Assembly (NCBI RefSeq): GCF_031885415.1
Contig: NZ_CP116871.1
Span: forward strand, 3,689,260 to 3,753,259
Direction of reading: 5' to 3'
Source: Microbacterium forte
GTDB lineage: Bacteria > Actinomycetota > Actinomycetes > Actinomycetales > Microbacteriaceae
Length of the DNA: 64,000 nt
A model generated the notes under the pieces. It was not told where the DNA came from and did not search any database. It saw only the letters and a list, made by a program, of their open reading frames with translations. Below, piece after piece: positions 48,097 to 58,021 of the stretch. Position 1 is the stretch's first letter. Every line of letters starts with the position of its first letter. The position numbers were made by a program, and so were the translations under genes.

Positions 48097-48945
48097 ATGA
48101 GCGATCGTCTGCGTCCTGAATCCGAATCGACCCTGGCTGCCGCGGCCGGAGAGCTCCTGTCCGAGCTGCGCGAGAGTGCACCTCTGACCCACTGCATCAC
48201 CAACAGCGTCGTCACGGGGTTCACCGCCAACGTGCTGCTCGCCCTCGGCGCGGCACCGGCGATGGTCGACATCGTCGACGAAGCAGGAATGTTCGCCGGG
48301 GTGGCGTCCGGCGTCCTGATCAACCTCGGAACGCCGACCCCCGAGCAGCGGGCGGCGAGCCTCGAAGCCGCGGCCGGTGCCGTCGCCGCGGGCACTCCGT
48401 GGGTGCTGGATCCCGTCGCGATCGGCGCACTCCCGGTGCGCACGGCCCTCGCCCACGAGCTGGTCGCCTCGCGCCCCACGGCGATCAGGGGGAACGCATC
48501 CGAGATCCTCGCGCTCGCCGGACTCAGCGCAGGCGGCCGGGGTGTGGACGCGACAGACACGACAGACGATGCGGCAGAGGCAGTGCTCTCACTCGCCGCG
48601 CGTCATGGCTCTGTGGTCGCGGTGTCTGGACCGGTCGACCTGGTGACCGATGGCGTCCGTCTGCTGCGCATCGCGAACGGTCACGAGCTGCTCACCCGGG
48701 TCACCGGCGGTGGGTGCGCGCTGGGCGCGGTCATGGCCGCGTTCCTCGGCGCGGCGCGCTCGACCTCTGCCGATCCGCTCACGGCGGTGGCGTCGGCGAG
48801 CCTCGTCTACACGATCGCCGCCGAGAGGGCCGCGGTGCACGCCTCGGGCCCCGGCACCTTCGCTGTCGCTCTGCTCGACGCGCTCGCCGCCGTGCAGCCG
48901 GCTGACCTGGTGGCCTCCGCGCGCGTTCGGGAGAGCGCGCTGTGA
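48097..48945 (+). CDS. thiM: Hydroxyethylthiazole kinase
   Basis: The 282-residue ribokinase-like enzyme phosphorylates the thiazole alcohol in thiamine salvage. Family features include [48 protein letters not shown] and [16 protein letters not shown] with the catalytic Cys-containing loop. It lies directly behind a TPP riboswitch and overlaps the fused thiE-thiD-tenA gene by four bases (GTGA), so salvage and coupling steps are co-regulated by TPP. Confidence 0.95.
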
Positions 48946-51092
48946 TCGCCGACCTCTCGCTCTACCTCGTCACGGATCCGGGCCTCTGCAGTGAGCGGGG
49001 TGTCGTCGAGACCGTGCGCCTCGCTGTCGACGGGGGAGTGCGCATCGTGCAGCTGCGCGACAAGATCGCGACGGATGCCGAGACCGCCGATCAGCTGGTC
49101 GAACTGTCGCGCGTGATCGCCGGCCGTGCGATCCTCCTGGTGAACGACCGGGTCGATGCGGCGCTCGCCGCTCGCGCTCGGGGAGCTCGCGTCGACGGCG
49201 TGCATCTCGGTCAGGGCGATGCGTCGGTACTGCGGGCGCGCGAGCGACTGGGTGCCGAGGCGATCATCGGGTTGACGGCGAACACACCCGACCACTTCGA
49301 CGCGGTGGCGGCTCTGCCTGCGGGCGTGGTCGACTACCTCGGCGTCGGTGTGATCCGCCCCACCGACACGAAGCCCGACCATCCGCCGGTTCTGGGCATC
49401 GACGGCTTCCGGTCGCTCATCGAGACGTGCGCCGTGCCCTGCGTGGCCATCGGCGGCGTGGACATCGATGACACTGAGCGACTCCGCGACGCGGGCGCGG
49501 CCGGCCTCGCGGTGGTCTCGGCCATCTGCGCCGCGGTCGATCCGAAGCAGACGGCGCAGAGCTTCCTCCGGCGGTGGCGGGCGTCAGGCACGCCGCGGGT
49601 GCTCAGCATCGCCGGCAGCGATCCATCGGGCGGTGCGGGGATCCAAGCCGACCTCAAGTCCATCGCCGCGAACGGCGGGTACGGCATGGCGGCTCTGACC
49701 GCACTCACCGCTCAGAACACCGTCGGCGTGCGGGCGGTGCATGTGCCGCCCGCGGAGTTCCTGCGGGAGCAGCTCGATGCGATCTCAGACGACATCGTCA
49801 TCGATGCGGTGAAGATCGGGATGCTGGCGAATGCCGACGTGATCCGTGCGGTCTCCGACTGGCTCGATGCCATGCGGCCGCCGATCGTCGTGCTCGACCC
49901 GGTCATGGTCGCGACCAGTGGCGACCGGCTTCTCGACCGGGAGGCCGAGGTCGCGCTGCGCGGACTCCTCGAGCGCGCGCATGTCGTGACGCCCAACCTC
50001 GCCGAGCTCGCCGCGCTGGCCGACCATCCGATCGACGGGTGGGATGACGCGCTCGCGGCGGCAGCTGCGCTCTCCGACCGTGTGGGCGCGGCGGTGCTCG
50101 TGAAGGGAGGGCATCTCGACGGCGACGACGTGCCCGACGCGGTGATAGACGCTGCCGACGGAGTGAGTCGGGGGTATCCGGGCGCGCGCATCGCGACCCG
50201 CAACACGCATGGCACCGGGTGCTCGCTCTCGTCCGCCCTCGCCACCCGCCTCGCCAGGGGCGAGTCCCTCACCGACGCGGTCGCCTCGGCCCGTTCGTGG
50301 CTGCGTGAGTCTCTGACGGAGAGCGATGCGCTCCACGTCGGACGAGGACACGGGCCGATCAACCACTTCGGCGGCCTCTGGCGACGTGGCGGACTCGAGA
50401 CCACCCCCGACCGGGCGCACATCCGCGATCAGTGGTGGGAGCGGATCGCGCACCTGCGGGCAGATATCGACGAGCTGCCCTTCGTCGGCGCTCTCGCCGA
50501 CGGGACACTCGACCGCGAGTGGTTCCTGTTCTACCTTCGCCAGGATGCGCTGTACCTCCGGGAGTACGCGAGGGTCCTCGCCGAGGCCTCTCGGCTCGCA
50601 CCGACACCGCACGAGCAGGCGTTCTGGGCGGAGTCCGCGCACGGGGCGATCGCCGGAGAGCTCGAACTCCACGCGTCGTGGCTGACCCCCGGTGCGGGCG
50701 TGGAGGCGGAGACTTTCGCCGCTGATCCGGCCCCCGCGACCGTCGCGTACCTCGACCATCTGCGATCGGTCGCCTTCGGCGCAGACTACGCCGAGCTCAT
50801 CGCCGCCGTGCTGCCGTGCTTCTGGCTCTACACCGATCTCGGGACGCGTCTGCACTCGGGGGCGTTCGGCGAGTACGCCCGCGATCCGCAGCATCCCTAT
50901 GCATCGTGGCTCGCGACCTACGCCGATCCGGCCTTCGAGGCGGCGACAGAGCAGGCGGTCGGCTACGTGATGGACGCGGCGGCGCAGTCGGATGCCCCGC
51001 GGCGTCGACGGATGCTCCGAGCGTTCGAGGTCTCGAGCGCCCACGAGCTCGCGTTCTTCGCGGCGCCGGCGCTCCCCGTGCCTGCCGGATGA
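48942..51092 (+). CDS. Trifunctional ThiE-ThiD-TenA fusion (thiamine synthesis/salvage)
   Basis: This 716-residue protein joins three enzymes. Residues 1-~212 are thiamine-phosphate synthase ([34 protein letters not shown]). Residues ~217-475 are HMP/HMP-P kinase ([50 protein letters not shown]). Residues ~490-716 are TenA, the aminopyrimidine aminohydrolase, with the catalytic Cys626 in LPCFWLY (TenA-C type). It makes thiamine phosphate from HMP and the ThiM product and recovers HMP from thiamine breakdown. The start GTG 48942 is coupled to thiM. Confidence 0.93.
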
Positions 51093-51102
51093 CGGACCGG
51101 AT

Positions 51103-51132
51103 TTGCGCATGCCGCGACGAGCGCGCTATCGT
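51103..51132 (+). promoter_or_regulatory. Promoter of the arg leader ORF
   Basis: TTGCGC (51103-51108) and TATCGT (51127-51132) are 18 bp apart. The -10 ends 6 nt before ATG 51139, the same leaderless spacing as many genes in this window. Confidence 0.5.
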
Positions 51133-51138
51133 CGCGGC

Positions 51139-51222
51139 ATGCCTTCGGCCGCCACCGCAACTCTGACGCTCGCTCCGAGCGCCATCGCCGTGCGCCGACG
51201 CCGCAGCGGCCGCCGACTCTAG
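51139..51222 (+). CDS. Short arginine-rich ORF, candidate arg attenuation leader peptide
   Basis: This ORF of 27 codons encodes a peptide that begins MPSAATATLTLAPSAIAV and ends RRRRSGRRL. Six of its last nine residues are Arg, using CGC four times and CGA twice. It has its own -10 box at leaderless spacing and stops 114 nt before argC, the first gene of the arginine operon. Arg-rich runs at the end of a leader ORF are the hallmark of ribosome-mediated attenuation. This function is an inference; in GC-rich DNA short Arg-rich ORFs also arise by chance. Confidence 0.5.
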   Translation: MPSAATATLTLAPSAIAVRRRRSGRRL

Positions 51223-51252
51223 GCGACCCTGCGCTTCTGCCTGCGTACGCAC

Positions 51253-51297
51253 GGCGGTCGAGTGCCGGTGTCGCCGCCCCGGTTCCCGACACTGCAC
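51253..51297 (+). promoter_or_regulatory. Possible arg attenuator: two exclusive hairpins
   Basis: Hairpin 1 pairs GGCGG (51253-51257) with CCGCC (51274-51278). Hairpin 2 pairs GTGCCGGTGTCG (51262-51273) with CGACACTGCAC (51287-51297), 10 bp with a small internal loop. The left arm of hairpin 2 lies in the loop of hairpin 1, so they are alternatives. No T-run follows, so the mechanism could be Rho-dependent or translational. Confidence 0.35.
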
Positions 51298-51324
51298 CCC
51301 GCGTTCGCCGAGGGGTCCGACCGT

Positions 51325-51330
51325 TAAGGT
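51325..51330 (+). promoter_or_regulatory. -10 box or ribosome site before argC
   Basis: TAAGGT is 6 nt before ATG 51337 and fits the leaderless pattern. The same bases contain AAGG at Shine-Dalgarno distance, so a longer transcript from the leader promoter could also be translated. Confidence 0.4.
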
Positions 51331-51336
51331 AGAAGC

Positions 51337-52389
51337 ATGACGTACTCCGTCGCCGTCTCCGGCGCATCCGGCTACGCGGGCGGCGAGATCCTGCGCCTCC
51401 TCGCGTCTCATCCCGACATCGAGATCCGCACCGTGACGGCTCACTCGAACGCCGGTCAGCCGCTCGTGCAGCATCAGCCGCACCTGCGGTCTCTCGCTCA
51501 CCTCACTCTGCAGGACACCACACCTGAGACGCTCGCAGGTCACGACATCGTGTTCCTCGCTCTGCCGCACGGTCAGTCGGGTCAGTACACGGATGCGCTC
51601 GGCGACACCCCGCTGGTGATCGACGCCGGGGCCGACCATCGCCTCACCTCGCAGGCGTCCTGGGATGCGTTCTACGGCGGCGACTTCCACGACCCCTGGG
51701 CCTACGGGGTCCCCGAGCTGCTCGTCGACGGCATCAAGCAGCGCGAGACGCTGCGCGAGGCGAAGCGGATCGCCGCCCCCGGATGCAATGCATCCACGGT
51801 GAGTCTGAGTCTCGCTCCCGGCGTCGCAGCGGGAGTGATCGACGCGGGAGACATCGTCTCGGTGCTCGCCGTCGGCCCCTCGGGTGCGGGGAAGAGCCTC
51901 AAGACCAATCTGCTCGCCAGTGAGATCCTCGGCAGCGCCAATCCCTATGCGGTCGGCGGCACCCACCGGCACATCCCCGAGATCCGCCAGGCACTCGCCG
52001 CGGCATCCGGTGCTGCCGCCGACGGCATCCGCATCTCCTTCACCCCTGTGCTCGTTCCGATGTCGCGGGGAATCCTCGCCACCTCGACCGCGCCGATCGC
52101 CGGTGACGTCAGTGACGCGGAGATCCGCGCCGCCTGGGAGGACGCCTACGGTGACGAGACATTCGTGCAGCTGCTGCCCGAGGGACAGTTCCCGCGCACG
52201 GCCGATGTCCTCGGCGCGAACACCGCACTCATCGGCCTCGCGATCGACCGTGCGGCGAACCGCGTGACGGTGGTCGCCGCGGTCGACAATCTCGTCAAGG
52301 GCACCGCAGGCGCTGCCATCCAGTCCATGAACCTCGCGTTGGGACTTCCCGAGTCCCGCGCCCTCTCAGTGAACGGAGTCGCACCGTGA
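51337..52389 (+). CDS. argC: N-acetyl-gamma-glutamyl-phosphate reductase
   Basis: The 350-residue enzyme reduces N-acetylglutamyl phosphate with NADPH, the third step of arginine synthesis. The nucleotide-binding [11 protein letters not shown] is at the N-terminus and the catalytic Cys150 is in [20 protein letters not shown] and [10 protein letters not shown] are family markers. It is the first gene of argC-argJ-argB-argD-argF-argH, all linked by four-base overlaps. Confidence 0.97.
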
Positions 52390-53543
52390 GCGTCACCGCC
52401 CCCGCAGGATTCGAGGCGGCCGGAGTCGCCGCCGGCCTCAAGTCGACCGGCAAGCCCGATGTCGCCGTGGTCGTCAACCGCGGCCCGCGCAAGGTCGGTG
52501 CCGCCGTGTTCACGAGCAACCGCGCCAAGGCCAACCCGATCATCTGGTCGCAGCAGGCCGTCGCCGATCGCGTGGTCGAGGCCGTCGTGCTCAACTCCGG
52601 CGGAGCGAACTGTTTCACCGGCAGCTTCGGCTTCCAGACGACGCACCAGACCGCCGAGAAGGCGGCAGAGCTGCTCGGCGTCAGCGCCGGCGACGTCCTC
52701 GTCTGCTCGACGGGGCTCATCGGGGTCGGAGACGAGGTCTTCCGCGGCAAGGTGCTCGCGGGCACCGCACAGGCGATCGCCGAGCTGTCGGCCGACGGCG
52801 GCGACGTCGCGGCGGAGGCCATCATGACGACCGACAGCGTCTCGAAGACCGCTGTCGTGAGCCGGGACGGCTGGACGATCGGCGGCATGGCGAAGGGCGC
52901 GGGCATGCTCGCCCCGGGCCTCGCGACGATGCTCGTCGTCATCACGACGGATGCCGTGCTCGAACCTCTCGAGGCCGACGCGGCGCTGCGATTCGCGACC
53001 GGCACGACGTTCGACCGCCTCGACTCCGACGGCTGCATGTCGACCAACGACCAGGTCACGCTGCTCGCCAACGGCGCCTCCGGGGTGGCCCCCGACCTCA
53101 AGCACTTCTCTGCTGCCCTCGCCGAGCTCTGCCTGGAACTCGCGGTCAAGCTGCAGAGTGATGCCGAGGGCGCGAGTCATGACATCACCATCGAGGTGCG
53201 GCACGCCGCCAGCGAGGGGGAGGCCGTCGAGGTCGGCCGCTCGGTCGCCCGCAACAACCTCTTCAAGGCCGCGATCTTCGGAAACGACCCCAACTGGGGT
53301 CGGGTGCTCGCCGCGATCGGCACGACCAACGCGCAGTTCGACCCGTACGACGTCGACGTCTGGATGAACGGCGTCCGCGTGTGCAGCGAGGGCGGCCCCG
53401 ACCGTCCGCGCGAAGAGGTCGACCTCACCCCTCGCGCCACGCACCTCGTGATCGACCTCAAAGTCGGCGAGGCCACTGCGACGATCCTCACCAACGACCT
53501 GACCCACGACTACGTGCACGAGAACAGCGCCTACGCCTCATGA
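52386..53543 (+). CDS. argJ: Ornithine acetyltransferase / N-acetylglutamate synthase
   Basis: The 385-residue enzyme moves the acetyl group from N-acetylornithine to glutamate, closing the acetyl cycle. It cuts itself into two subunits at Ala180-Thr181 ([12 protein letters not shown]); Thr181 becomes the nucleophile. [10 protein letters not shown] and [10 protein letters not shown] are also diagnostic. Start GTG 52386 overlaps the argC stop. Whether it also uses acetyl-CoA (bifunctional form) cannot be read from sequence. Confidence 0.96.
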
Positions 53544-54457
53544 CCGACATCCAGGACACCACGCCTGACGTCGCCGCCGTCAAGGCCGCGACGCTCATCG
53601 AGTCGCTCCCGTGGCTGAAGAAGTTCCGCGACCAGATCGTCGTCGTGAAGTACGGCGGCAACGCGATGGTCTCGGACGAGCTGCAGGAGGCGTTCGCGCA
53701 GGACATCGCGTATCTGAGGTACGTCGGCGTGCTGCCGGTGGTCGTGCATGGCGGTGGGCCCCAGATCTCCGACATGCTGCAGCGCCTCGAGATCCCGAGC
53801 GAGTTCAAGGGCGGCTACCGCGTCACCAACACCGAGGCGATCAGCGTGGTGCGCATGGTGCTCACCGGCCAGGTGAACCCGCAGCTGGTCTCGAAGATCA
53901 ACTCTCATGGTCCGATCGCGACCGGACTCAGCGGCGAGGATGCCGGGCTGTTCGGCGGGCGTCGCCGCGGCGTCGTGATCGACGGCGAGGAGATCGATCT
54001 CGGTCGCGTGGGCGACGTCGTCGAGGTGGACCCGACGCCCGTGCTCGACCACCTCGCGGCCGGACGCGTTCCCGTGGTCTCGAGCATCGCCCCCGACCTC
54101 GATCACCCGGGCCAGTCGCTGAACGTGAACGCGGATGCCGCGGCTGCCGCGCTCGCCGTGGCTCTCAAGGCGCGCAAGCTCGTCATTCTCACGGATGTCC
54201 CCGGGCTGTACGCCGACTGGCCCAACCGCGACTCTCTCGTGTCGCATCTCACCTCGGAGGCTCTCATCGAGATGCTGCCGACCCTCGAATCAGGCATGAT
54301 CCCGAAGATGAAGGCGTGCCTGGACGCGATCGAGGGCGGCGTCGACGCCGCCGCGATCATCGACGGACGCGTGCCGCACTCGGTGCTCGTCGAACTCTTC
54401 ACCAGCAAGGGAATCGGAACAGAAGTGGTCATGGGAAGCGCAGGAGTGAAGGCATGA
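53540..54457 (+). CDS. argB: Acetylglutamate kinase
   Basis: This 305-residue kinase phosphorylates N-acetylglutamate and is usually the arginine-feedback-controlled step. [10 protein letters not shown] at the N-terminus, [26 protein letters not shown] and the C-terminal [18 protein letters not shown] are present. The N-terminal ~25-residue helix before the core is the kind found in arginine-sensitive hexameric forms, which suggests feedback inhibition. Coupled to argJ and argD by ATGA overlaps. Confidence 0.96.
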
Positions 54458-55661
54458 GCAACTGGCAGGATGACGCAGCGAGCGATCTGGTCCTCAACGC
54501 AGGTCCCCGGTTGGCGATGCTGACTCGCGGCGAGGGATCGTACCTCTGGGACTCCGAGGGCAAGCGCCACCTCGACTTCCTCGCCGGCATCGCGGTGACC
54601 TCGCTCGGTCACGCGCATCCGGTGTTCGTCGAGGCCGTGTCGACGCAGGCCGCGACCCTTGCGCATGTGTCGAACTACTTCGCGACACCGTCGCAGCTCG
54701 CGCTCGCCGCACGGTTGAAGCGTCTCGCCGGTGCCGGGATCGATGGGCGCGTGTTCTTCTCGAACTCCGGCGCCGAGGCGAACGAGGCCGCGTTCAAGCT
54801 CGCCCGCCTGCACGGCGGGACGGAGAAGCCCCGCATCCTCGCGCTCGAGAACGGATTCCACGGCCGGACCATGGGATCTCTCGCGCTCACGGCGAAGGCG
54901 GCCATGCGCGCGCCCTTCGAGCCGATGCCCGGGGGAGTCGAGCACATCCCGGCGACCATCGAGGCACTCGAGGCGGCGATCGACGACCGCGTCGCCGCCG
55001 TGATCGTCGAGCCGATCCAAGGTGAGGCAGGCGTCGTCGAGCTTCCTGAGGGATACCTGCAGGCCGCTCGCTCGCTCACTCTCAAGCACGGGGCCCTGCT
55101 CATCGTCGATGAGATCCAGACCGGGGCAGGGCGCACGGGCGCCTGGTTCGGCTTCAGCCACGAAGGCATCACGCCTGACGCCATCACGCTCGCGAAGGGC
55201 ATCGGCGGTGGCTTCCCGATCGGTGCTCTCGTGACCTACGGTGCGGCGAGCTCGCTCTTCACTCCCGGTTCGCACGGCTCCACGTTCGGCGGAAACCCGC
55301 TCGCGACGGCCGTCGCAGACGCGGTGCTCACCGAGATCGAGCGCGCAGGCCTCGTCGACAACGCCGCGCGTCGTGGGGAAGAGATCTTCGAGATCATCGC
55401 CGATATCGACTCGCCTCTGGTCACGGGAGTGCGTGGCCGCGGGCTCCTGATCGGGGTGGCGCTGGGCGCCCCCGTCGCGAATGAGGTGGTCGCCGCCGCT
55501 CAGGAGCGCGGCCTCATCGTGAACGCCGCCAACCCCGAGACCGTGCGCATCGCGCCGGCTCTCACGATCGGAGACGCCGAACTCGCCGAGTTCCGCGAGC
55601 TGTTCGCCGCGTCGCTCTCCGACGTCCAGACCTCCCTCGCCGAATCCGGAAAGGCCCTCGC

Positions 55662-55665
<4 letters not shown>
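54454..55665 (+). CDS. argD: Acetylornithine aminotransferase
   Basis: The 403-residue PLP enzyme converts N-acetylglutamate semialdehyde to N-acetylornithine. Class III aminotransferase features are [47 protein letters not shown] and the PLP lysine in [15 protein letters not shown]. Start ATG 54454 overlaps the argB stop; the frame further upstream is inside argB. Confidence 0.96.

Positions 55666-58021
<2,356 letters not shown>

Follow-up and report, generated by a model that had tools for sequence, protein, structure and literature searches.

A candidate ribosome-mediated arginine attenuator ahead of argC in Microbacterium forte and other Microbacteriaceae

The arg operon and its leader region

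The window, a stretch of 64,000 nucleotides from Microbacterium forte (NZ_CP116871.1, positions 3,689,260 to 3,753,259), contains an argCJBDFH operon whose six genes are all confirmed by NCBIfam models above cut-off, as an earlier note on this DNA had proposed (Table 1). Upstream, positions 48942-51092 form a single 716-residue ORF that fuses ThiE, ThiD and TenA parts and, at 748 bits, narrowly misses the 761-bit cut-off of a fused NCBIfam model. The interval before argC holds a 27-codon ORF with the translation MPSAATATLTLAPSAIAVRRRRSGRRL*, which ends in RRRRSGRRL and so places 6 Arg among its final 9 codons. The earlier note had read this ORF and its terminal Arg run correctly, together with a TTGCGC-N18-TATCGT promoter at leaderless spacing, 6 bases separating TATCGT from the ATG. 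GATTTGC, which takes in the start of the -35-like element, is present in the consensus of 28 genus loci, and a weaker gatT.G is found in 37 other-genus loci. A scan of 50500-52000 for a sigma-70 consensus promoter returned none, and its sole terminator-like site lies at 50506-50521, outside the leader region. Neither a T-run nor an intrinsic terminator with a U-run occurs in 51103-51336, in agreement with the earlier remark that no T-run follows the hairpins. Rfam models run against 50500-52000 gave three matches, all far under the gathering score, and identified no T-box or other family.

Table 1. Positions of the leader elements and arg genes, numbered from the first letter of the window
Feature	Position	Strand	Basis or remark
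-35-like element, TTGCGC	51103..51108	+	sequence; begins inside GATTTGC 51100-51106
-10-like element, TATCGT	51127..51132	+	18-nt spacer from -35; 6 bases to ATG
Leader ORF, 27 codons, MPSAATATLTLAPSAIAVRRRRSGRRL	51139..51222	+	sequence, homologues in relatives
First Arg run, codons 19-22, CGC CGA CGC CGC	51193..51204	+	
Second Arg pair, codons 25-26, CGC CGA	51211..51216	+	
Segment 2, hairpin 5′ arm, GGCGACCC	51222..51229	+	overlaps last base of stop codon
Helix 2:3 with inner stem, candidate anti-terminator or anti-sequestor	51222..51275	+	fold, relatives
CGGTCG, this genome's 5′ side of helix 3:4	51255..51260	+	predicted pairing
Segment 3, hairpin 3′ arm, ending GTCGCC	51268..51275	+	alignment and folds
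Segment 4, CGACCG	51318..51323	+	two bases ahead of argC AAGG; predicted pairing
Shine-Dalgarno-like AAGG of argC	51326..51329	+	also within -10-like TAAGGT
argC, first gene of the operon	51337..52389	+	TIGR01850, above cut-off
argJ	52386..53543	+	NF003802, above cut-off
argB	53540..54457	+	TIGR00761, above cut-off
argD	54454..55665	+	NF002874, above cut-off
argF	55662..56591	+	NF001986, above cut-off
argH	56588..58021	+	TIGR00838, above cut-off

A perfect 14-base inverted repeat at 51107-51142 spans the -10 box and the start codon. We considered this palindrome as an operator and rejected it: 14-base arms occur in only 1 of 27 other genus genomes, and the best promoter palindrome elsewhere in the genus has 9-base arms. 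Being so rarely shared, it therefore falls outside the conserved system.

Within this one genome the Arg run is unremarkable. There are 4 leaderless short-ORF candidates in the 64-kb window, 2 of them with at least 5 Arg per ten residues, as compared with a mean of 0.45 leaderless Arg-rich ORFs per 64 kb in 20 first-order Markov windows. The other Arg-rich candidate, at 50545, is an out-of-frame stretch of the upstream thi gene. The full 198-nt leader folds no better than shuffles (z -0.71). A single genome cannot exceed chance and its relatives do, so the case rests on comparison.

Conservation of the leader across Microbacteriaceae

ArgC was found in 28 of the 29 genus genomes searched, the source genome included. 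We listed leaders in these genomes without any Arg criterion, and all 28 carry a TANNNT box 6 or 7 bases before the ATG of a 21-35 codon ORF with clustered Arg; at one locus (L019) the leader is divergent and lacks a matching hairpin arm. A second set, which overlaps the first in genomes, was drawn from ArgC loci with record titles by taking the 80 nearest (75 Microbacterium, 5 Microbacteriaceae or Actinomycetota). Under a rule requiring 4 Arg in ten residues, the leader is present at 78 of these 80 loci. Locus L164 has no such ORF, and locus L210 keeps the sequence with the frame broken, which could be a sequencing error.

We then sampled 84 other genera of the family, of which 4 gave no ArgC match and one (G037), whose match began late, was left out; one region was taken from each of the remaining 79, plus one extra congener. 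The family rule called for TANNNT 5-8 bases before ATG or GTG, 15-60 codons and at least 4 Arg in ten. By this rule the leader is present in 38 of the 79 other genera, or in 40 once two are added by eye, one with its box nine bases before the start (L049) and one with a weak Arg run (L106). No leader was found in 36 of the 79 (for example L036, L039, L084 and L101). In the remaining three, L034, L057 and L061, the downstream arm is present and the end of pheT takes the place of the leader. One of the 38, L043, has an armless leader far upstream and was dropped from the structure work, which used 38 family regions, counting the extra congener and excluding L043. From the order's other families we took 20 regions, and none of the 19 that were readable has such a leader ending before argC; at one of these outgroup loci (L116) an Arg-rich leaderless frame runs into argC itself. 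Conservation of the ORF and its Arg run, which the earlier note had made decisive, is therefore borne out in close relatives, and further out it holds in about half of the genera.

Of the 106 genus and titled loci, 102 have 6 nt between the -10 box and the start and 4 have 7 nt; of the 38 family-set regions, 32 have 6 nt and 6 have 7 nt. The spacing is 6-7 nt in 144 of 144 leaders, for which a spacing of 5-8 nt was a selection criterion. Among 32 distinct 27-codon ORFs, codons 19-22 are Arg in 29, 31, 32 and 25, respectively, and codons 25-26 in 32 of 32, with an N-terminal half that varies. Between 4 and 8 Arg codons lie among the 12 that end at the last Arg (143 leaders). Arg accounts for 38% of the final 16 residues at the genus and titled loci and for 37% in the family regions, most rows having been selected for Arg. 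The last 16 codons contain a mean of 6.0 Arg in frame vs 1.9 and 3.2 in the other frames for the genus and titled sets, and 5.9 vs 2.4 and 2.3 for the family set, although frame 0 was itself chosen for Arg in most rows. Mean entropy is similar at the three codon positions (0.56, 0.58 and 0.61), and the leader therefore has no strong synonymous signature. Among leader Arg codons, CGA has a share of 31% at the genus and titled loci and 22% in the family regions, compared with 6% (12/193) across the Arg codons of eight window genes; the hairpin described below may constrain some of these leader CGA codons.

The earlier note had worried that the Arg run could be chance in GC-rich DNA. For the window alone this stands, as the run is not unusual within this one genome (0.45 expected from the Markov windows, 2 present). 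Across relatives it does not, because the ORF, with its start, spacing and stop, recurs in all 28 genus genomes read and in 38 of the 79 other genera. We consider it extremely improbable that the run is accidental, with argC controlled otherwise or not at all.

The argC start itself differs with the presence of the leader: [AG]AGG stands ahead of argC in 38 of 40 leader-bearing other genera vs 6 of 36 without a leader. A TANNNT box stands 6-7 bases ahead of argC in 28 of the 40 leader genera and in 25 of the 36 that lack the leader, with TAAGGT counted as both box and ribosome site. Its presence in the leader genera makes a second, leaderless argC transcript possible. In the 25 genera without the leader, the box (e.g. 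TAGATT) suggests from its placement that argC may be leaderless. We also read the region before argG, where a leaderless short ORF is absent in 28 of 28 genus loci. A TAGACT-like box lies about 6 bases ahead of the argG start in most of these 28 loci (L211-L238, e.g. L225) and suggests a putative leaderless argG mRNA.

Predicted helices at the stop codon and ahead of argC

Overlapping the end of the ORF, a GGCG arm is complementary to a CGCC arm some 40-60 nt downstream, and the two define helix 2:3. In the window, 51218-51284 folds at -34.7 kcal/mol (z -2.54; 2 of 200 shuffles equally good), and the hairpin is seen in all six chosen single folds. Over 44 loci its mean z is -3.7, with 40 under -2, a result favoured by our choosing arms for complementarity; a comparison stretch, the 5′ part of the ORF, gave a mean z of -0.03 with 4 under -2. 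In 39 aligned rows, 92.0% of the helix 2:3 cells pair, vs 89.4% when shuffled and at most 70.5% when slid. The four GGCG pairs never vary (39 of 39 rows), and the central pair is unpaired in 13 of 39. Three pairs are changed on both sides, a number matched by 103 of 500 shuffles, and the covariation score of 0.118 exceeds 500 of 500 shuffles but falls below two slid versions (0.130 and 0.124).

Of 143 leaders, 131 have the GGCG arm starting 5 nt past the last Arg codon and the other 12 have it at 2 nt when frame and flanking bases were favoured in picking the arms; when they were not, 120 of the 143 have it at 5 nt and 13 at 2 nt. In 114 leaders the first base of the arm is the last of the ORF (TA, then GGCG); in 29 the ORF ends 13 to 28 nt past the arm start. 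It is thus the distance between Arg codons and arm that is kept, rather than the position of the stop. This bears on the idea that the ORF encodes a short basic protein acting in trans, with no cis leader. Conservation of the ORF would suit such a protein, but the N-terminal part is variable and the length ranges from 20 to 43 codons across the set, whereas the Arg codons and the Arg-to-arm distance are maintained, and we give this idea next to no weight.

An RNA model of the leader, run against the source genome, has one good site, before argC (2.8e-7; the next two 0.7 and 1.0). Among 246 genomes of the class, 11 matched, comprising 9 of the 12 listed family members and two others. The unmatched family members are G106, whose genus was also scored free of the leaderless ORF, G243 and G285. 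The two matches outside the family have no ArgC start nearby and lie within long open frames, and we took them as chance. These results also bear on whether the leader senses something other than arginine, such as ribosome-targeting drugs or generally slow translation. Arg-Leu-Arg drug-resistance leaders do exist, according to a mention in the available portion of PMC8632094. However, the only good match in this genome is at argC, and the leader precedes arginine biosynthesis genes, an argument that is partly circular in that leaders were sought before argC. A signal of that kind appears very unlikely.

The second helix, 3:4, joins the surroundings of the 3′ arm to the 18 bases directly before the argC AAGG. 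Against shuffles it is weak: 5 of 65 loci reach p<0.05, with a median p of 0.41 and a combined p of 0.04. When native pairing was compared with segments swapped between loci, helix 3:4 gave z -4.6 (44 loci) and -3.9 (34 non-redundant), in a test that was done after the weak shuffle test, covered ten pairings and leaves shared ancestry in place. The next pairings in that test were the 5′ part of the ORF with segment 3 (-2.2), helix 2:3 (-2.2) and the post-arm stretch with the stretch before the Shine-Dalgarno (-1.8). Of the ten, two that were intended as controls reached z -2.2 and -1.8. With a ribosome at the stop codon, helix 3:4 has 5.6 expected pairs in native sequences vs 3.09 in swapped ones (sd 0.25, 12 swaps).

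We modelled the ribosome on either the first Arg codon or the stop, with RNA assumed free from 13 nt past the start of the A-site codon. Moving it from the first Arg to the stop strengthens helix 3:4 in 47 of 65 folds and weakens it in 5; 27 of the 65 loci are congeners, and the loss of helix 2:3 at the stop is by construction. Mean Shine-Dalgarno pairing is equal in both states (0.389 and 0.395). Under the assumed footprint, a ribosome held at the last Arg would hide segment 2 just as one at the stop does. In the window RNA, helix 3:4 keeps 6.0 pairs in each of the three ribosome states and helix 2:3 forms in none of them; with identical pairing throughout, a switch is therefore not seen at equilibrium. 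We infer that helix 2:3 would form first during transcription. The earlier claim of two mutually exclusive hairpins stands in so far as 51222-51275 is a strong hairpin and relatives back the second helix; the window fails to show an equilibrium switch between them. As a separate observation, GCTTCTGCC at 51233-51241 could in this genome pair with GGTAGAAGC at 51328-51336, which would mask the end of the argC ribosome site, with conservation judged by eye in close relatives.

The same sensor could drive a simpler switch, with the stop-codon hairpin acting as the terminator itself or uncovering a Rho site, and with a ribosome stalled over the final Arg codons keeping that hairpin from folding. 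The hairpin is suitably strong and local (-34.7 kcal/mol; mean z -3.7 over 44 loci), and its arm, 5 nt past the last Arg codon, is reachable by a ribosome stalled there. By the assumed footprint, however, the arm is exposed while the ribosome stands at the first Arg and becomes hidden once it sits at the stop codon. This arrangement also leaves segment 4 without a role, contrary to the swap tests, and a U-tract is absent; we regard it as unlikely.

Probable arginine sensing in a family without a detected ArgR

ArgR and its ARG boxes control arg genes by arginine supply. The earlier note had seen no argR in this cluster, and a search with PF02863 extends this to the whole genome: none of 150 family genomes, the source genome included, gave an ArgR match in a search whose control was positive in 8 of 14 known genomes. 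In the order's other genomes it is present in 110 of 111, the exception being a genome of 0.8 Mb. An ARG-box-like pattern occurs with at most 3 mismatches in 17 of 19 outgroup regions and at least 5 in 80 of 80 family regions; as the pattern was derived from outgroup promoters, only the contrast between family and outgroup counts. An argR gene elsewhere with an ARG box here, which the earlier note had named as grounds against its reading, was thus found neither as a protein in the genome nor as a site before argC. The leader would share with the ArgR system the control of arg genes by arginine supply, in a setting where neither protein nor site was found. As 36 genera of this family, in which ArgR was not found, have no leader either, there must be other ways than the leader of doing without ArgR.

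Given a conserved Arg-rich leader and no sign of the usual repressor, the ribosome itself probably senses arginine supply. We consider it quite likely, on the comparative sequence evidence, that the argC leader acts as a ribosome-mediated attenuator responding to arginine in genomes where no ArgR was found. The earlier reading of stalling at Arg codons gains support here, as it fits the fixed Arg-to-hairpin spacing and the swap tests. In the proposed mechanism, RNA polymerase would start at the A of 51139 and a ribosome would load straight onto the leaderless ATG. When charged tRNA-Arg is scarce, the ribosome would halt in the first Arg run, leaving segment 2 (GGCGAC, at the stop codon) free to pair with segment 3 (GTCGCC). 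Helix 2:3, a candidate anti-terminator or anti-sequestor, would then keep segment 3 off segment 4 before the argC Shine-Dalgarno, and the operon would presumably be expressed. With ample arginine, the ribosome would instead reach the stop codon and cover segment 2, and helix 3:4 would form and switch argC off by either a transcription stop or hindered 30S loading.

Short ORFs with a promoter, here recognised by its sequence, that stand before a biosynthetic operon and carry codons for the operon's own amino acid are features of an attenuator, and all are found here. The trp and his leaders are classical leader-peptide attenuators. The predicted layout at argC, in which an Arg run is followed by an arm at the stop, a second arm and a third segment ahead of the ribosome site, matches a classical attenuator. 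Shared with that class are regulatory codons, a stop that places the ribosome on a helix arm and, as candidates here, two exclusive helices; unlike it, the argC leader has no U-tract terminator, has a predicted leaderless start and uses arginine. Actinobacterial ilvB leaders, as far as the available text of PMC13236596 and PMC10272879 describes them, also belong to this known group.

Closer in their start are the mycobacterial leaderless polycysteine sORFs, which are reported to be cysteine-responsive attenuators (Canestrari et al. 2020). Like them, the argC leader is actinobacterial, has a leaderless start (here predicted) and repeats a single amino acid in a short ORF ahead of the operon for its synthesis; unlike them, it has an arginine run and no cysteine run, belongs to a different family and has two candidate overlapping RNA helices. 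Seliverstov et al. 2005 (PMC1262725), in the sections available to us, describe mycobacterial cys leaders without conserved hairpins that could be terminators. According to the same sections, a conserved RNA structure was not seen upstream of arginine operons in Actinobacteria. For arginine codons, the available part of PMC6386406 describes the Salmonella speF leader orf34, in which ribosome pausing at consecutive Arg codons selects the RNA structure. In contrast to the argC leader, orf34 as described there is enterobacterial, controls ornithine decarboxylase, has two consecutive Arg codons and works with RNase G and Rho. Among the matches listed in open full-text literature there was no report of an arginine leader peptide before argC, and one may exist elsewhere.

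On an ArgC tree of 37 family rows and 4 outgroups, the leader needs 8 changes vs a shuffled mean of 13.8 (0 of 500 as low), with family rows hand-picked as 19 with the leader and 18 without, three of the latter being of a pheT type. This would suggest an early gain of the leader and several later losses. In the three loci of the pheT type (L034, L057 and L061), the leader ORF is absent and the 3′ end of pheT stands at the position of the hairpin arm, reading GGGCGAC in two and GGGCGGC in one, with CGTCGCC or GGTCGCC downstream. pheT adjoins argC in many of these genomes, and leader C-termini of the form RRL(S/G)AT..R (L035, L065, L104 and others) resemble the PheT tail RFGATLRD. Comparing 37 leaders with PheT tails gave a summed best score of 1008 vs 926 (sd 21) in 60 shuffles, and for 17 chosen leaders an end-anchored mean score of 4.3 vs -6.3. 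As this comparison ignores kinship and the constraint that the arm places on residues A-T, it stays a lead.

Taken as a history, Microbacteriaceae may have lost ArgR and replaced it at argC by the leader, which was later lost in some lineages and may derive from a copy of the pheT 3′ end; we put this forward tentatively and hold it doubtful. If true, one regulatory logic would have replaced another, with a ribosome-based sensor in the place of ArgR in about half of the genera. The argC leader, if it acts as proposed, would be a leaderless attenuator outside mycobacteria, and a leader-peptide attenuator for arginine biosynthesis in Actinobacteria, where the 2005 survey, in its available sections, reported no conserved structure. 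Read as an arginine attenuator, it yields simple predictions for growth with and without arginine.
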